Below are positions 32,328 through 39,175 of a stretch of 64,000 nucleotides of DNA, piece after piece; position 1 is the stretch's first letter, and each line of letters opens with the position of its first letter. The position numbers and the translations under genes are program-made. Below the pieces are notes generated by a model, which was given only the letters and a program-made list of their open reading frames with translations, had not been told where the DNA came from and ran no database searches. The stretch comes from Limnobaculum xujianqingii. GTDB lineage: Bacteria; Pseudomonadota; Gammaproteobacteria; Enterobacterales; Enterobacteriaceae. The stretch covers positions 62,001-126,000 of the forward strand of contig NZ_JABMLK010000002.1 in NCBI RefSeq assembly GCF_013394855.1, given 5' to 3'.

Positions 32328-33074
32328 ATGAATGACACACACTCGACGTTGATTAGACAACTCTGCGAGCGTATTGCAGAGCCAGATAATACGCCGCTAT
32401 ATCTGAAGTTTGCTGAAACGGTCAAAATGGCAGTGCGAACGGGTATTTTGCCGCCAGGAAATATTCTGCCGGGAGAACGGGACTTAAGTCAGCTAACCGG
32501 AGTGTCGCGAATTACCGTACGTAAAGCCATGGAGATGCTGGATGAGCAGGGCGTAGTTATTCGTTCCCGCGGTTTTGGTACCCAAATTAACGATAAGTTT
32601 GAATACTCATTAAAAGAAGCCAAGGGGTTCTCCCAGCAGGTAGAGCTGCGGGGGAAAAAGCCAAATACCCTGTGGGTTAACAAGAGTATTGTTAAATGTT
32701 CTGATGAAGTTGCCGGGCAGCTAAAAATTCCGCTTAACAGTCAGGTGTTTATGCTTAAGCGCATTCGTTATGTGGATGATGACCCGGTTTCTATTGAAGA
32801 GTCCTATGTTCCGGTAGAGTTAATAAAAAATGTTGATGACATCGGTATGTCACTGTATGACTACTTTCGCAGCCAGAACATTATTCCTCAGCGAACTAAA
32901 AGCAAAGTCAGCGCCCGCATGCCGGACGTTGAGTTTCAGTCACATATTAAGCTGGATGAAGCAGTACCGGTGTTGGTGATTAAGCAGGTGGTGTTTGATC
33001 ATTTAAATCGACTGATTGAGTATAGTGTGAATTTGTGTCGTAGTGATATGTATGTGTTTGTTTCGGAAGAGTAA
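32328..33074 (+). CDS. yegW: GntR/HutC-family transcriptional regulator YegW
   Basis: An N-terminal GntR winged helix (about residues 20-90; GILPPGNILPGERDLSQLTGVSRITVRKAMEMLDEQGVV) is followed by a UTRA ligand-binding domain of the HutC/FarR type (about 100-240; IRYVDDDPVSIEESYVP). The 248-residue length equals E. coli YegW, and yegVUT lie next to it in the same arrangement. It probably controls yegTUV. The repeated AATACC half-sites upstream of yegT (36778-36825) are the best operator candidate. The ligand is unknown. Confidence 0.88.
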   Translation: MNDTHSTLIRQLCERIAEPDNTPLYLKFAETVKMAVRTGILPPGNILPGERDLSQLTGVSRITVRKAMEMLDEQGVVIRSRGFGTQINDKFEYSLKEAKGFSQQVELRGKKPNTLWVNKSIVKCSDEVAGQLKIPLNSQVFMLKRIRYVDDDPVSIEESYVPVELIKNVDDIGMSLYDYFRSQNIIPQRTKSKVSARMPDVEFQSHIKLDEAVPVLVIKQVVFDHLNRLIEYSVNLCRSDMYVFVSEE

Positions 33075-33112
33075 TTATCTTATTTCGAGTAGGTTTCGTC
33101 CGCAAATAATGT

Positions 33113-33408
33113 AGTGTCTTGCTTGACTAGTGTGCGGCGGCCGAGCAAGAGGCGTTAAGGCGAACGCCTCCTGCACCTCCGCGCCTTCGCACACGAATTC
33201 AGGTCGCTACGCGACTTCCTTCCTCCTTCTTTCGGCCTTAACGCACCGGCACTGATTCGCTCCCGGCGAAGCAGTGCCTCGAGCAGCATCCATGCTGCTC
33301 GTGCTGGCCTCTTTCAGTCGTCAGCTGAATTCCAGTGCTCCCTGGAAAGGGCAAACCAAAGACCAAAGACCAAAGACCAAAGACCAAAGATTAAGGGCTA
33401 AAGGTCAA
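33113..33408. repeat. Family-2 structured repeat, copy D, with AAAGACC heptamer tail
   Basis: This 300-base element fills the gap between the convergent genes yegW and yegV. In order it holds hairpins GAGGCGTT/AACGCCTC (33149-33170), GTCGC/GCGAC (33203-33215), GGCACTG/CAGTGCC (33248-33278, 17-base loop) and GAGCAGCA/TGCTGCTC (33281-33300). Four exact AAAGACC units (33358-33385) and degenerate ones follow. The copy at 38277-38566 has the same layout with changed but still paired stems. Confidence 0.82.
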
Positions 33409-33424
33409 TGGCCTGTTTTGTTGA

Positions 33425-34390
33425 TCAATTATATTGCTTAAGGTATTCCGATAACTCGGTTACTGATGGTGCGCAGTCGCCGCCGCGGTGGCTGACGACA
33501 TAGGAGGCTACCGCGTTGCCCAGTGTTACTGCATCAGCCAGTGACCAGCCGGAAGATAAGGCGGCGAGGACGCCGCCGGCGCCGATGGTGTCGACGACCT
33601 GAGCCGGGAACGGTTTTACCCAACCTTTTTGTTTACCGTCGTGATAACAGGCACCTTCTTTGTCTACCCGAATAATCAGTGGGCAGCCGTAGCGGTTGTA
33701 CCAATCATCTGCCAATGTTTCAGCACTCAGAACAGAAGTATGACCGGATATTCTGGTGTCCATTAATTCGGCTTCCTGACGGTTGAGAGATACCATTGGC
33801 TTGAGAGCCATCAGGCGAGCCAGTTGCTGCTCTGATATATCTTCAATACGCGGGCCGAAATCGATAAACAGTTCAATGTTGCTTTCTAATGACTCCAGCC
33901 AGTCAATCAATACTCCACCAGTGGCAGAGGCTAACTGATAGCCAGAAAGATAGATCAAAGTATCAGGCTGTAGCTTAAGGCTGCTCAGGGTTTCTTTATC
34001 CCACTGGTTTTCCACACCGCTAACGGACAGAAAAGTGCGTTCACCGTCGGGTTCCACTAAGGCCAGACACCAGCCGTTGTCGCCTTTATCGGTTTCCAGT
34101 GCGGAAACGATACCTTTTTCATTCAGGGTTTTGCGGATAATATCAGCCCAGATGCCTTGTCCCATCGGCAATGCATTAAGAGAAGATAACCCTAATCGAT
34201 GCAGGGTAATGGCAATATTCAGTGCACAACCCCCCACATTGACACCCTGCTGGTGCAGTTCAATATCACTGCCCCGATGAGGCAGTGAGTAAGCATCAGC
34301 AATTACATCAATCACTGCTGCACCAATCACACAAATTGGACGCTGATTAGTTAATGATGGAAGTTGGTTTTTCAGCTCAGCGGCGTTCAT
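33425..34390 (-). CDS. yegV: PfkB-family sugar or nucleoside kinase YegV
   Basis: A 321-residue ribokinase-family enzyme, equal in length to E. coli YegV. It has the substrate-binding N-terminal VIDVIADAYSLPHRGSDIEL and NVGGCALNIAITLHRLGL, and the C-terminal PfkB signature VDTIGAGGVLAALSSGWSLADA, where GAGG replaces the usual GAGD: the catalytic Asp position reads Gly. I note this as unusual; whether E. coli YegV shares it I cannot confirm. ATG 34390 lies inside the end of yegU (14-base overlap) with AGAGAGG before it. It likely phosphorylates a product released by YegU. Confidence 0.9.
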   Translation of the reverse strand: MNAAELKNQLPSLTNQRPICVIGAAVIDVIADAYSLPHRGSDIELHQQGVNVGGCALNIAITLHRLGLSSLNALPMGQGIWADIIRKTLNEKGIVSALETDKGDNGWCLALVEPDGERTFLSVSGVENQWDKETLSSLKLQPDTLIYLSGYQLASATGGVLIDWLESLESNIELFIDFGPRIEDISEQQLARLMALKPMVSLNRQEAELMDTRISGHTSVLSAETLADDWYNRYGCPLIIRVDKEGACYHDGKQKGWVKPFPAQVVDTIGAGGVLAALSSGWSLADAVTLGNAVASYVVSHRGGDCAPSVTELSEYLKQYN

Positions 34391-35399
34391 AAGTGGCCTC
34401 TCTTTGATGACGAAGCTGGACAAAGGTCTGACTGTAGCGGGTGAAGTCTAACTGATTGACCTGATCCAACTGCTGTTTTAATTGCGGGTCAATACGTTCA
34501 ATTCCGTGTAACGCGCCGCAAATGGCGGTTGCCATTGCACCAATTGTATCCGTATCACCGCCAAGGTTGGCACACAGAATAGCGCAGCGATTAGGATCGG
34601 TTTGTGCCAGTTCAACCATCGCGATGGCGGCAGGCACTGACTCAATGGTGCTGGTACCCGCACCTACCAAATGGTAAATCTGCTCCATGCCTTGTTCAAC
34701 GCCATCTGCCTGTCTGGCGGTGTGTAACGCCAGCTCGATTCTGGCAGCCATTGAAGCGCTAAAGGTGGTGATATGCTTTTCCTGTGCCGCTTTGGCAACC
34801 GCAGGAAGCTGATCGCAAATCTGTGACCAACTGATACCATCGATAGCTTTAGAAATAGCCCAGGCAATAGCGACTGCACCGGAAATCGCCACGTCAGACT
34901 TATGGGTTGGGCTGGAAGCTTTTGCCACATCGGCAATAAAATCATCCAGCGAATGGGTTGGCAACAGACAACCAAGCGGCGAAACCCGCATAGCAGCACC
35001 GTTAGTCACGCCATTATTCTCTAACCGATCAATTGGAGTACCTTTCTTAATGGCATTCAGTGCAATTTTGGAGGTTGGTCCTAACACGTTTTTATTGAAG
35101 GCATCAAACTCTTCTGCCCAGCTCATAATATTACGACCGATAATCGCAGGTTCGATTTCCCCTTTGCATTCAATAATGGCATCCGCCAGCGCCAGCGCCA
35201 TGGATGTATCATCGGTAAATTCGGCGGTATTAAAATAGCAGGCGGCGTTATTTTCAGCCGGTCCCGGTAAAAAGCGATCTATCCAGCCAAAATAGGATTT
35301 GACCCGAGAACGAGGCCACAACTCCGAGGGCATCCCCATCGCGTCGCCCAAAGCCTGGCCATAGAAGGCGCCTAAAATGCGGTTCTCTTTATTCATCAT
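34377..35399 (-). CDS. yegU: ADP-ribosylglycohydrolase-family protein YegU
   Basis: A 340-residue all-helical ADP-ribosylglycohydrolase-fold protein. It carries the metal-binding motifs GQALGDAMGMPSELW, EFTDDTSMA and, near the C-terminus, NLGGDTDTIGAMATAICGA. It matches E. coli YegU over its length. The family cleaves N-glycosidic ribose bonds; with a nucleoside transporter and a PfkB kinase as partners, YegU probably hydrolyses an imported nucleoside-like compound. Two ATGs occur at 35399 and 35396; AAGGG lies just upstream of both. Confidence 0.92.
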   Translation of the reverse strand: MMNKENRILGAFYGQALGDAMGMPSELWPRSRVKSYFGWIDRFLPGPAENNAACYFNTAEFTDDTSMALALADAIIECKGEIEPAIIGRNIMSWAEEFDAFNKNVLGPTSKIALNAIKKGTPIDRLENNGVTNGAAMRVSPLGCLLPTHSLDDFIADVAKASSPTHKSDVAISGAVAIAWAISKAIDGISWSQICDQLPAVAKAAQEKHITTFSASMAARIELALHTARQADGVEQGMEQIYHLVGAGTSTIESVPAAIAMVELAQTDPNRCAILCANLGGDTDTIGAMATAICGALHGIERIDPQLKQQLDQVNQLDFTRYSQTFVQLRHQREATYERR

Positions 35400-35473
35400 A
35401 AACCCTTAATATTGACTTTATTGCTGTACCGCGGAATTCACTGATTGAAGACCGCGGCGGATAACACTAACGA

Positions 35474-36745
35474 TTATGCTTCAACTGATTTAGCGTCTTG
35501 TGGTGCGACTTCAATGGTTTTGATTTCGCCATCGGACTCTTTAAAGAACAGCATAAACAGGATGGTAATCACCACGATCATAATGGCACCAAATCCCCAC
35601 ATACCTGCCCAGTTAAAGGTCTGGCCGTTAACTGGTTCAGAGTAGGCAAACATTTTTTCCATCATCTGACCGCCTAAACGGTAACCTAACAGGCTGCCAA
35701 AGCCCTGACAGCAAAGGGTAATCAGCCCTTGTGCTGCGGTGCGCATATGTACCGGTGCTTTTTTATCAACATAGATATAAGCGGTAACATAGTAGAAGTC
35801 GTAACTAACACCGTGCAGCAGAATGCCGAGGAATAACAGGCCGTAGGTAAAGATATGGTCGGCACCACCGTAGACGAAGAAGCCATAACGAATCGCCGCA
35901 GTCACTAAGCCCAGTAACAGCACCTTTTTGATACCAAAGCGCTTGGTAAAGAATGGCAGCGCCAGCATAAAGAAGATTTCAGAGAACTGACCCAGCGTCA
36001 TCCAACCGGTTGCATTTTTCATGCCTACTTCTGTCAGATAGCCATTGGCGAAGATATAGTAGAAAGCTAACGGCATAGCGAACAGGAATGAACAGAAGAA
36101 GAACACCAGGAAGTTGCGATCTTTTAACAGAACGATGGCGTCCAGCCCCAGCATTACCTTCACGCTCATCTTACCGGTACTCTTCGGCGGTGTATTTGGT
36201 AGCATCAGAGCAAATACCCCCAGCAGAGCGGAGCTGGCGGCGGTAATTAATAGAGGGATATTGCTGGCAGAGATATCGCCATAGCCCAGCATTCCCGGTA
36301 AGAAACCGCACACCAGACCAGAGGCGATCCAGCCGATAGTTCCCATTACCCGAATGCGCGGGAACTGACGTTCCACATCATCGACGTTAGAGAACGCAAT
36401 ACTGTTGGTTAGTGCGATGGTTGGCATATAGGTTAATGAATAGGCCAACAACAGCGGGAAGAAGGTATTGAACTGGGTTTGCTGTGCCGCCAGCCACATC
36501 AGTATGGCTCCGGCAAACATTAATACTGCCAGTACTTTTTGAGCTGCAAAAAAACGGTCTGTAATCGATCCCACTAATATAGGCGAGAGAATAGCGGCAA
36601 TCGCCGTACAGGCATAAGACCAGCCAATCTCTGTTGGGGTGAAACCGCTTGAATTCAGGAAAAGCCACAGAGGTACAAACCAGGCTCCCCAGATAAACCA
36701 TTCAATGAACATCATGAATGAGAGTTTTGCTATTGTTTTATTCAT
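35474..36745 (-). CDS. yegT: MFS nucleoside transporter YegT
   Basis: A 423-residue nucleoside:proton symporter family protein (NupG/XapB type), with 12 helices. It starts with LSFMMFIEWFIWGAWFVPLW, as in NupG, and carries a HGVSYDFYYVTAYIYVDK segment typical of this family. E. coli YegT has nearly the same length. It is the first gene of yegTUV; AAGGA lies eight bases before the ATG, and candidate GntR half-sites lie 30-80 bases upstream. The transported nucleoside is unknown. Confidence 0.92.
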   Translation of the reverse strand: MNKTIAKLSFMMFIEWFIWGAWFVPLWLFLNSSGFTPTEIGWSYACTAIAAILSPILVGSITDRFFAAQKVLAVLMFAGAILMWLAAQQTQFNTFFPLLLAYSLTYMPTIALTNSIAFSNVDDVERQFPRIRVMGTIGWIASGLVCGFLPGMLGYGDISASNIPLLITAASSALLGVFALMLPNTPPKSTGKMSVKVMLGLDAIVLLKDRNFLVFFFCSFLFAMPLAFYYIFANGYLTEVGMKNATGWMTLGQFSEIFFMLALPFFTKRFGIKKVLLLGLVTAAIRYGFFVYGGADHIFTYGLLFLGILLHGVSYDFYYVTAYIYVDKKAPVHMRTAAQGLITLCCQGFGSLLGYRLGGQMMEKMFAYSEPVNGQTFNWAGMWGFGAIMIVVITILFMLFFKESDGEIKTIEVAPQDAKSVEA

Positions 36746-37275
36746 GTTTCAGTCCTTTCATGATACTGCGTAGGGTAGGTATTGCTTACCATGACAATAC
36801 CATTTGATAATACCTTTACAATACCTTTGTGTGAAAACCTTGAACCAGATAACATTGTTGAAGGTTGTACCGGCGTAACTATTCTTCCTGTCAGCGATAA
36901 ATTCTTTTGATATCAATAGCAACAGTACCATTAGCCGTATTCCTGAAAGCGTGGTTTAATTTTTTCATGAATAACTTATTATATTTTAAAGGTTTTTTTA
37001 GGAAGAAAAGGCCTTAACCGGCTACCATCACTGGATGAGCCATAGGATAATCACAGAATTGTGCAACCTGCTGTAGAACTGAATCGATTTATTTAAAACG
37101 GTCAGTAACATCTCATGCTGAAAAAGTGCTTTTATATCCAAATATTACGCGTCGAATTGATATTTTGGTGAGATAATCGTTTTTTGTTACAACTTGCTAC
37201 TTTCAATTTATTTCTGCATCATCGACCATCTTAAATCGAAATCTGATTATTTTGTGAACTAGTTTTGGAGTTTTT
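36746..37275. other. Divergent intergenic region between yegT and bax
   Basis: This 530-base gap carries the yegT control region at its left end (listed separately) and the bax promoter at its right end. The middle is AT-rich, without repeats, RNA genes or open frames with a ribosome site that I can support. Confidence 0.5.
36778..36825. promoter_or_regulatory. Candidate YegW operator cluster
   Basis: The inverted pair GGTATTG (36778) and CAATACC (36795) is followed by direct copies TAATACC (36808) and CAATACC (36819). HutC-type GntR regulators bind GGTAT-type dyads. On the minus strand a possible promoter (TTGTAA, 16 bases, TATTGT) overlaps the copies, fitting repression of yegTUV. Confidence 0.55.
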
Positions 37276-38064
37276 ATGCCTTCACTTGTTTTAAAAATAA
37301 TAGGTTCAGCGTTTTTCCTTTTGAGTGTGAGTTCATCGGTCGGTTGGGCATCAACAGGGACAATGATCCATCAAGAGTATTCTCTCAATGATAAGCTTGA
37401 CAGCCTACCTGATTTGCGAAAATACCCTTCCGGCACTCAACGGAAAAAAGCATTTCTTAATGCCGTTGTACCTATTATTGATCAACAAAACAGTCAAATT
37501 CGCCAGGAACGCGAGTGGCTATTAAAGAAGCGTTCATCCCAGAGCTGGAGCTCACAGGACATCGTGCGGTTACAGCAAATCTGTAGTCGTTATCGTATGG
37601 AATGCACCTCAAATCCCAAGAAGGTGAAGTGGGATGAGCTGCTGAAACGCGTTGATGTTCTGCCGACTCATTTGGTGGTTGCTCAGGCAGCGACAGAGTC
37701 AGGCTGGGGAACCTCTAAGCTGGCGCAAACCAACAAGAATTTGTTTGGTATGCGCTGCGGTAGTAAAAGTTGTAATAGCAAAGGTGGAATAAAAGGTTAT
37801 TCATCCTACAACTCTGTAGATGATTCCGTCACTGCCTATTTGCTGAATATGAATACCCACGCGGCCTACAATAAACTGCGTGATTCACGGGCAGCGCTGA
37901 GAAGCCAGGGCGATACCGTGACGGCCGAGCACTTAGTGAATAAACTGGGACGCTACTCTGAACGAGGTGCGTCGTATAATCAGTTTTTACGCAAGATGCT
38001 GGACCATAATGAAGAGTTGATCCAGCAGGTGAGAACCGCATCAAGTGTTGATGTTGCTGGTTAG
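37276..38064 (+). CDS. bax: Glucosaminidase-domain protein Bax
   Basis: A 262-residue exported protein with a signal peptide ending at VGWA (residue 25) and a Bax/FlgJ-type glucosaminidase domain. It carries the E. coli Bax marks LPDLRKYPSGTxRKKAFL, the catalytic Glu in AATESGWGTSKLA, NLFGMRC, GYSSYNSVDDSVTAYLLNMNTH and a final YSERGASYNQFLRKM. It probably cleaves peptidoglycan glycan strands in the periplasm. It is a single gene with its own terminator. Confidence 0.9.
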   Translation: MPSLVLKIIGSAFFLLSVSSSVGWASTGTMIHQEYSLNDKLDSLPDLRKYPSGTQRKKAFLNAVVPIIDQQNSQIRQEREWLLKKRSSQSWSSQDIVRLQQICSRYRMECTSNPKKVKWDELLKRVDVLPTHLVVAQAATESGWGTSKLAQTNKNLFGMRCGSKSCNSKGGIKGYSSYNSVDDSVTAYLLNMNTHAAYNKLRDSRAALRSQGDTVTAEHLVNKLGRYSERGASYNQFLRKMLDHNEELIQQVRTASSVDVAG

Positions 38065-38081
38065 TTAGGGATTATAAATTT

Positions 38082-38113
38082 AAAAACCGGACAGTTATCT
38101 GTTCGGTTTTTTT
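38082..38113 (+). terminator. Rho-independent terminator after bax
   Basis: AAAAACCGGACAG pairs with CTGTTCGGTTTTT (one G-U pair, four-base loop), and T residues run to 38113. The A-rich left arm makes it able to work in both directions. Confidence 0.88.
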
Positions 38114-38152
38114 ATGGGTGGAATTCAAAGATAGTTTGATATTGTTTAGTTT

Positions 38153-38273
38153 GGTGTGAGTTTCGCCGCTTTTGATGCAGTGTTTATTTCGGCAGCTGCG
38201 TACCAGATGTTGATGTTTGAATATTTTGTTCGGTGTGAGTTTCGCCGCCTTTGATGAAGTGATTATCTCGGCA
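38153..38273. repeat. 43-bp direct repeat, two copies 79 bases apart
   Basis: The segment GGTGTGAGTTTCGCCGC... through TCGGCA occurs at 38153-38194 and 38232-38273 with few differences. The second copy leads into family-2 element E. Confidence 0.7.
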
Positions 38274-38276
38274 ATG

Positions 38277-38566
38277 GTGCTTGCGTCGAGCAAAGGGGCG
38301 TTGGGGCGAACGCCCCTTTGCACTCCCCGCGCCTGCGCAGCCGACTGTTGACCGCCGCGTTGCGGCGGCAACCTCAGTCAGCCCAGAGGCTTAACGCACC
38401 GGCATAGAGCCGCTCCCAGCGTCGCTATGCCTCTCACCGCATCCATGCGGTTCGTGCTGCCTCTGGTCTTCCTTCGGCAACATTCGGATGCTTTAACCTG
38501 AAGGGCAAAGGGCAAAGGGCAAAGGGCAAAGGGCAAAGGGCAAAGGGCAAAGGGCAAAGGGCAAAA
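38277..38566. repeat. Family-2 structured repeat, copy E, with GGGCAAA heptamer tail
   Basis: It has the same layout as copy D. Hairpins are AAGGGGCGTT/AACGCCCCTT (38293-38318), CCGCCGC/GCGGCGG (38352-38368), GGCATAG/CTATGCC (38401-38431, again a 17-base loop) and ACCGCA/TGCGGT (38436-38451). Nine exact GGGCAAA units (38504-38566) close it. It lies between the convergent genes bax and mtlR. Confidence 0.82.
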
Positions 38567-38615
38567 TATAAAAATGAATGTCCGAATGGAATACCTGATT
38601 GGTAGTTAGCATTGC

Positions 38616-39175
38616 CAATCGTCGGGCTTAGCCCGACGCACCCCAGATTAAAGTACAGACGGTCTACCGGCCGAGCACCATGCTTATATAAGCAATATCG
38701 CTTTTACGGCCGGAATATCCACAGCAGTTAACAGTAAAAAGTGCCAATCGTCGGGAGAGGCCGCCGTTGGGGTCGACTTGGCGTAAGCCAACGAAGCGCC
38801 CCTAGGCGGACTAGGCCCGACGCACCCCAGGCTAAAGTACAAACGGTCTACCGGCCGAGCACCAAGCCTATATAAGCAATACCGCCTTTACGGCCGGAAT
38901 ATTCACGGTAGCTAACAGTAAAAAATGTCAATCGTCGGGCCCAGCCCGACGCACTCCAGGCTAAAGTACAGATGGTCTACCGGCCGAGCACCAAGCCTAT
39001 ATAAGCAATACCGTCTTTACGGCCGGAATATCCACAGTAGCTAACAGTAAAAAATGTCAATCGTCGGACTAGGCCCGACGCACCCCAGGCTAAAGTACAA
39101 ACGGTCTACCGGCCGAGCACCAAGCCTATATAAGCAATACCGCCTTTACGGCCGGAATATCCACGGTAGCTAAAA
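38616..39175. repeat. Tandem array of four family-1 units, 129-bp period
   Basis: Units begin with CAATCGTCGG at 38616, 38745, 38929 and 39058. The spacing is 129, 184 and 129 bases; unit 2 is longer by 55 bases because it carries the TCGACTTGGCGTAAGCCAAC hairpin block found in copy B'. Each unit holds GTCGGGC/GCCCGAC-type arms and CCGGCCG...CGGCCGG arms around a TATATAAGCAATA core. Nothing in the array looks coding. Confidence 0.85.

Follow-up and report, generated by a model that had tools for sequence, protein, structure and literature searches.

Two copies of a branched, structured repeat

The window analysed here, a stretch of 64,000 nucleotides (nt) corresponding to C2:62001-126000 of the 4.76 Mb genome of Limnobaculum xujianqingii (G000; G and L numbers are our handles for genomes and loci), contains two copies, A and B, of an intergenic multi-hairpin repeat. 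The element is real and strongly structured, and it is a variant of the TwoAYGGAY RNA (Rfam family RF01731), not a new RNA class. Re-reading the sequence bore out the original prediction that both copies hold the same four hairpins in identical order, and every stem that it cited was found, as were the loops of 17 bases and of TCCA. We adjusted the limits of both copies, those of copy B and the far end of the copy A tail being approximate (Table 1). The conserved part starts 17 nt ahead of a TTTCG motif and ends in CAGTGCTC (copy A) or CATTCGGATGC (copy B); purine-rich tails, such as (AAGGGCA)n, come after it.

Table 1. Parts of the two repeat copies, in window positions
Feature	Position	Strand	Description and basis
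Copy A, A-type, complete element	33077-33340	minus taken as RNA strand	R1 score 195.6 bits; from conservation start, RF01731 and R1
P1	33097-33143		arms CGTCCGC / GCGGCCG around ~33 variable bases; by eye from the sequence and the A alignment
P2 hairpin	33145-33174		GAGGCGTT/AACGCCTC, a stem of the original prediction; outside the RF01731 match
Small hairpin	33202-33217		GTCGC/GCGAC, a stem of the original prediction
Multiloop helix	33234-33309		GGCC/GGCC and GCAC/GTGC, closing H5 and H6
H5 hairpin	33248-33278	minus	GGGAG in minus-strand loop
H6 hairpin	33280-33301	minus	minus-strand loop CAUGGAUG
Copy A heptamer tail	33341-33408		purine-rich, mostly (CAAAGAC)n
Copy B, B-type, complete element	38223-38491	minus	R1 155.7 bits at 38287-38462
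Copy B heptamer tail	38499-38565		(AAGGGCA)n

Read 5' to 3' on the plus strand, the element begins with P1 (arms CGTCCRC / GYGGCCG separated by ~33 variable bases), followed by hairpin P2, a linker that is conserved and a 3' domain. This domain has a small hairpin, an outer helix, and a multiloop that contains H5 and H6 and is closed by pairs of the GGCC/GGCC type and by GCAC/GTGC. P1, the multiloop helix GGCC/GGCC and the outer helix closing the 3' domain come in addition to the four hairpins first noticed, and the fold is branched, with two hairpins lying within the outer helix. P1, which was left out of the pair counts below, reads CTGC/GCAG in L012 and L018 and is fully paired in L015 and L020, as judged by eye. 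The linker after P2 (33150-33182 and its relatives) repeats the C-rich arm (CCTCC TGCAC CTCC) and co-varies by eye; the G-rich arm of P2 could pair with either the C-rich arm or the linker, a possible switch.

The two window copies belong to a family of about 40 in this genome. BLAST with one or the other yielded 43 and 49 matching stretches, and model R1 gave at least 39 matches among the best 46 scored candidates. Our curated set holds 38 copies, 30 of A-type (like that at 33113) and 8 of B-type (like that at 38277); L029, L030, L031, L040 and L041 were set aside as fragments or for having no hit. Seven of the 38 (L006, L033 and L035-L039) carry a block of 70-80 nt with extra hairpins inside the H5 loop, and the minus-strand loops of this block, which add further GGA loops, again include CAUGGAUG and GCAGGAGC. 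Most copies whose ends were compared, the window copies among them, end in AAGGTCA-like purine-rich units, which differ from copy to copy and number from one to more than 20 (L002). Directly upstream of copy B, at 38145-38194, lies a lone copy of the element's 5' end that is 88% identical to 38224-38273.

Covariation and hairpin exchange

We scored covariation in three sets of copies. The model alignment of the own genome comprised 27 copies, leaving out L006, L020, L024, L033 and L034-L039 for inserts or rearrangements and L027 as a duplicate. Standard pairs filled 96.8% of its 1130 stem cells, against 84.6% in shuffles, and two-sided changes occurred at 24 of 42 pairs (144 doubly changed cells versus 40 in shuffles). 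In 88 copies from four species, 96.5% of cells were paired, two-sided changes occurred at 25 of 42 pairs, and 474 cells were doubly changed versus 135 in shuffles. Among 42 distinct copies from other genera, including Pragia, Budvicia, Serratia, Dickeya, Symbiopectobacterium, Escherichia and Shewanella, the figures were 89.7%, 38 of 42, and 344 versus 99; alignments fitted to a model in this way are biased towards that model. When partners were slid by 1 to 3 columns, at most 51.2% of cells were paired in the 27 copies and, to the nearest percent, 51% or less in all three sets. The stems thus stay paired, and covariation is far above both the shuffled and the slid controls, other genera included, which supports the conserved fold that had been proposed.

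The matched stem changes had been read as compensation, and this reading holds in part: pairing is kept, across genera too, but within the genus the changes are mostly swaps of whole hairpins and not many independent compensations. For 19 or more of the 38 copies, a sister species has a counterpart at the same site. These ortholog pairs were picked by us from flank matches; for a few, a single flank of a short locus matched, both flanks doing so in a longer version of that locus. In 23 of 38 comparisons some paralog equalled or exceeded the same-site copy in similarity. In 37 same-site comparisons (L028/L167 being left out of this block count), P2 had doubly changed pairs in 8, H5 in 19 and H6 in 24, each time 2 to 6 of them together and never exactly one; the exception was the multiloop helix, with a single doubly changed pair in 7 of the 37. 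Over all 38 comparisons there were 70 one-sided and 179 two-sided changes. Hairpin alleles, with minor variants counted, number 25 for P2, 21 for H5 and 40 for H6, and they are recombined among copies, with four-gamete patterns for 5 of 6 helix pairs. Because the changes come in blocks of 2-6 pairs and the alleles are recombined, we conclude that hairpins within the genus are for the most part swapped or replaced whole; alleles of different helices are still associated above shuffles. The covariation across genera is the stronger evidence for selection on structure. We do not claim L028/L167 as a replacement of A-type by B-type, L167 having marks of both.

Kinship with TwoAYGGAY, GGA loops and the RNA strand

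The original prediction had also suggested an undescribed structured element, and here the result was otherwise. A default Rfam scan of the window gave no match, and a permissive-filter search matched the minus strand of copy A, at 33182-33347, to TwoAYGGAY with 45.4 bits, above the gathering cut-off of 43 bits; on that search we rejected an undescribed family. A B-type copy in a sister species scored 48.6 bits. Of nine further copy-bearing loci, L026 alone passed the cut-off (44.5 bits), and L022 (42.2), L014 (38.6) and a Shewanella locus (32.7) matched below it; among four more, a Dickeya locus (37.8 bits) and two E. coli loci (31.5 and 28.5) gave weak matches. Searched genome by genome with the best 21 candidates scored in each, RF01731 was found in at least 24 of 118 relatives, at least 13 of them above the cut-off, and at least four times in G000. 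Our own family model found the element in at least 29 of 149 genomes of the same family in GTDB (best 18 candidates per genome), and a pattern scan with our own model found a member in Shewanella jiangmenensis (28.3 bits).

Judged by these model scores, the window repeats are very probably kin to TwoAYGGAY. Like it, the element is gammaproteobacterial and has an outer helix and a multiloop from which two hairpins branch, and its H6 loop is AUGGAU in copies A and B. Unlike it, the element has NGGAGC as its second loop, has P1 and P2 (about 105 nt) outside the matched span, and occurs in ~40 copies per genome that carry heptamer tails and are spread as a repeat. We speak of a variant and not of a plain member because only one of the two loops is AYGGAY, and even in H6 the strict motif is present in 47 of 88 and 27 of 44 copies. 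TwoAYGGAY was listed as probably an RNA, and not cis-regulatory, in the original description (Weinberg et al. 2010, PMC2864571), and CsrA binding was later proposed from its loop motifs (PMC4333381, 2014); passages of PMC11701678, PMC7657543 and PMC11661157 treat its structure. In the extracts of open-licence literature that name it, we found no description of TwoAYGGAY as a repeat or mobile element, and titles and abstracts on repeat lists, on IS4 and terminators, and on CsrA and repeats held nothing on the element.

The stems vary while the loops keep GGA. Minus-strand H6 loops read CANGGANG (81 of 88 and 44 of 44 copies), and those of H5 read either GGGAGC or CANGGANG (57 of 88 copies and 40 of 44); the H5 exceptions that we listed (8 of 31 and 4 of 4) all hold GGA, as TGGAGC, AGGAGC, TGGAAC, CAGGAGC and similar. 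Copies of the E. coli type and of the type found in G019, a related genome, have UACAGGGAUGU in H5, which we take to equal the consensus core obtained for CsrA by SELEX (systematic evolution of ligands by exponential enrichment). CsrA recognises fixed GGA loops on stems that are free to vary, and one CsrA match and one CsrB were found in the own genome. The element resembles the CsrA-binding small RNAs (sRNAs) CsrB/RsmB and RsmX/Y/Z in having GGA in its hairpin loops, and RF01731 shares Rfam clan CL00106 with CsrB (RF00018). It differs from them in consisting of dispersed repeats at gene 3' ends and not of dedicated sRNA genes, and neither the default nor the permissive Rfam search matched RF00018 to the window copies. 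The predicted binding of CsrA to at least one loop is about an even prospect, and a physiological role in Csr control is possible but doubtful.

The RNA most likely corresponds to the strand opposite to that on which the hairpins were first described, a call that we make mainly because of the RF01731 match and the loops. Both window copies fold well on both strands (RNA folding z-scores of -3.5 to -4.6). In plus-strand stem cells, A.C outnumbers G.T by 84 to 24 of 3693 cells, and by 16 to 8 when columns are counted; in the cross-genus set the counts are 52 and 37 of 1677. A.C on the plus strand is G.U on the minus strand, so that its excess is what an RNA with the minus-strand sequence would predict, and RNA made from the plus strand is not favoured, given this lean and the minus-strand match.

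Spread, gene context and rival explanations

In G019, copies lie between 18-bp ends that resemble those of IS4 (23 end matches versus 0 in the control). Such carriers measure 361-518 bp. Thirteen elements have paired ends, 12 in G019 and 1 in G011; nine of these show target duplications of 11-13 bp (one mismatch allowed), and 7 contain an R1 or RF01731 match, 5 the element by eye only and 1 an IS4 piece. The latter is a 153-aa transposase fragment that scores 72.6 bits with NF033592, below its cut-off of 115, and 38.1 bits with PF01609, over its cut-off of 23. Ten of the 13 sites score as terminator-like versus 283 of 2000 random positions, by a score that passes 14% of random positions and misses 3 of 13 terminators recognised by eye (L228, L233 and L242). 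Two G019 copies are identical in the alignment and have different flanks. The element is thus like miniature inverted-repeat transposable elements (MITEs) of the IS4 family in its G019 form, in which one end pair holds a transposase fragment, and unlike them in the window, where such ends and target duplications are lacking. Spread as a mobile element is likely overall, and the window copies may once have spread as those of G019 and G011 did.

Gene contexts were taken from open reading frames and not from annotation. The 38 copies lie in convergent gaps in 23 cases, between tandem genes in 12 and between divergent genes in 3 (raw counts). Copy A itself is flanked by converging reading frames with ends at 33074 and 33425. 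For 51 further copies with both neighbours called, a set that contains same-site and clustered copies, the counts are 23, 23 and 5. Beyond the genus, some match to the copy between asmA and yegH of E. coli is present in 5375 of 5426 complete genomes, 1454 of which cover at least 80% of the query. Between proX and ygaY, another E. coli strain has the element. No plasmid record matched copy A; a G019-type copy gave 26 plasmid-record matches at 60-80% identity, several of them to records of chromosome size.

On balance we favour the reading in which both window repeats would be a divergent, extended TwoAYGGAY-type RNA, encoded opposite to the strand first described, that spread as a repeat and kept its GGA loops. 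Its dispersal in the genome would have been that of a small, non-autonomous repeat, one that takes up positions immediately downstream of genes, where read-through transcription would make it a 3' untranslated region or a convergent tail; transcription of the window copies is putative. Its stems would be free to change, with the GGA loops held fixed by a GGA-binding protein, most likely CsrA. A number of results weigh against this reading. Copy B had no RF01731 match at E values up to 10, nor had L046 at up to 5 or L001, L002, L005, L008 and L083 at up to 1, and the second loop, H5, is not AYGGAY, being GGGAG in copies A and B. RF01731 was found in none of 14 control genomes, E. coli included (best 21 candidates per genome), and kinship of the E. 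coli copies therefore rests on BLAST and R1 (48.2 and 45.6 bits). Of the 84 A.C cells, 48 come from two columns, and without these the count falls to 36 versus 23, a weak strand signal. Tandem copies in the own genome show no orientation preference (6 versus 6). No match to the IS4-like ends was found in G000 when up to 2 mismatches were allowed, and the flanks of the 38 copies showed no excess of direct or inverted repeats (direct repeats exceeded the 95th percentile in 3 of 38, inverted repeats in 2). Target duplications at the window copies were in no excess over cross-pairs of flanks, and split terminators were not found in Limnobaculum. Because IS4-like ends and duplications were not found there, we infer the mobility of the window copies from their relatives.

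The hairpins of repetitive extragenic palindromic (REP) sequences and bacterial interspersed mosaic elements (BIMEs) act as DNA in the spread of these repeats, and the present hairpins could likewise act as single-stranded or cruciform DNA, with any RNA being incidental. Wobble pairs would fit this, since they are rarer (G.T 0.65% and A.C 2.3% of 3693 cells) than in tRNAs of the same genome (4.2% G.U, 26 of 617), although block swapping of hairpins also explains that rarity. The opposite-orientation clusters of copies in G022, the indifference of own-genome tandem copies to strand, and the sequence that we read as BIME-like at the proX-ygaY site of K-12 also point to DNA. The wobble lean to one strand, the Rfam family and clan, and the GGA kept in loops on varying stems point to RNA; we know of no need for fixed GGA loops in a DNA hairpin, and we consider a DNA element unlikely. 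That a few ancestral hairpins were merely traded among paralogs by gene conversion, giving the appearance of compensation with no present selection on the fold, would account for the block changes, for the recombined alleles and for the same-site copy surpassing the best paralog in similarity in just 15 of the 38 pairs. The persistence of pairing across genera despite diverged stems already weakens it, as do the conserved loops and the association of helix alleles above shuffles, and we hold it very unlikely.

An element at 3' ends that acts in cis on mRNA stability or termination, and not via CsrA, would suit the placing of TTTCG within 60 nt of the reading-frame end in 20 of the 29 copies with a plus-strand gene on the left, and the wider set, in which the RNA strand runs along transcription in 17 tandem cases and against it in 6. 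The even split in the own genome, the loss of the 3' half of the asmA-yegH copy in K-12 and the fixed GGA loops, which this idea leaves unexplained, tell against it, and it appears rather improbable. We also put forward, tentatively, that TwoAYGGAY elements are mobile modules bound by CsrA, which enter intrinsic terminators as miniature elements of the IS4 type and recombine hairpins among copies; we regard this proposal as unlikely.

Should the mobile-module proposal be true, dozens of transcripts would gain at their 3' ends a branched RNA bearing at least two GGA loops, and the outcome would be either a CsrA sponge that is dispersed and evolvable or Csr control over many genes. Since 2010 TwoAYGGAY has been an RNA without a known role, an orphan, with no function given, in the literature extracts consulted, beyond the motif-based CsrA proposal. 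New here are the P1/P2 extension beyond the Rfam match, NGGAGC in place of one AYGGAY loop, a copy number in the dozens with copies at the 3' ends of genes, the exchange of hairpins and, in a related genome, a connection with IS4-type miniature elements that lie in terminators. Relatives of TwoAYGGAY that form a high-copy interspersed element, with some match in nearly all complete E. coli genomes, make the orphan testable in K-12, and the IS4-like carriers in terminators offer a way to study its role.

REP/BIME, enterobacterial repetitive intergenic consensus (ERIC) and similar enterobacterial repeats are palindromic, intergenic and present in many copies. The element shares these traits and differs in its greater length (about 265 nt), branched fold and fixed loops. 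Copies cluster in opposite orientation within about 1 kb at L067, L092-L096, L098 (G022), L049 and L061. In Limnobaculum allomyrinae (L083, 2500-3560) a tandem array in reverse orientation shares the element's 5' half (P1 and P2) and has a different 3' half, from which the 3' domain looks exchangeable. A clean empty site was not found at L013, where the flanks lie about 8 kb apart in two sister species. The L012 site holds the element in one sister, and two others (L217 and L218) carry a short hairpin, which we read as another element, followed by the element's 5' end reversed; from this site, it seems that one intergenic repeat can take the place of another at a fixed position. A second intergenic hairpin repeat (CGTCGGG...CCCGACGCACCCCAG) lies at 38614-38900 of the window in two copies that are 86% alike, and sequence resembling it comes after element copies in L014, L016, L024 and L037.

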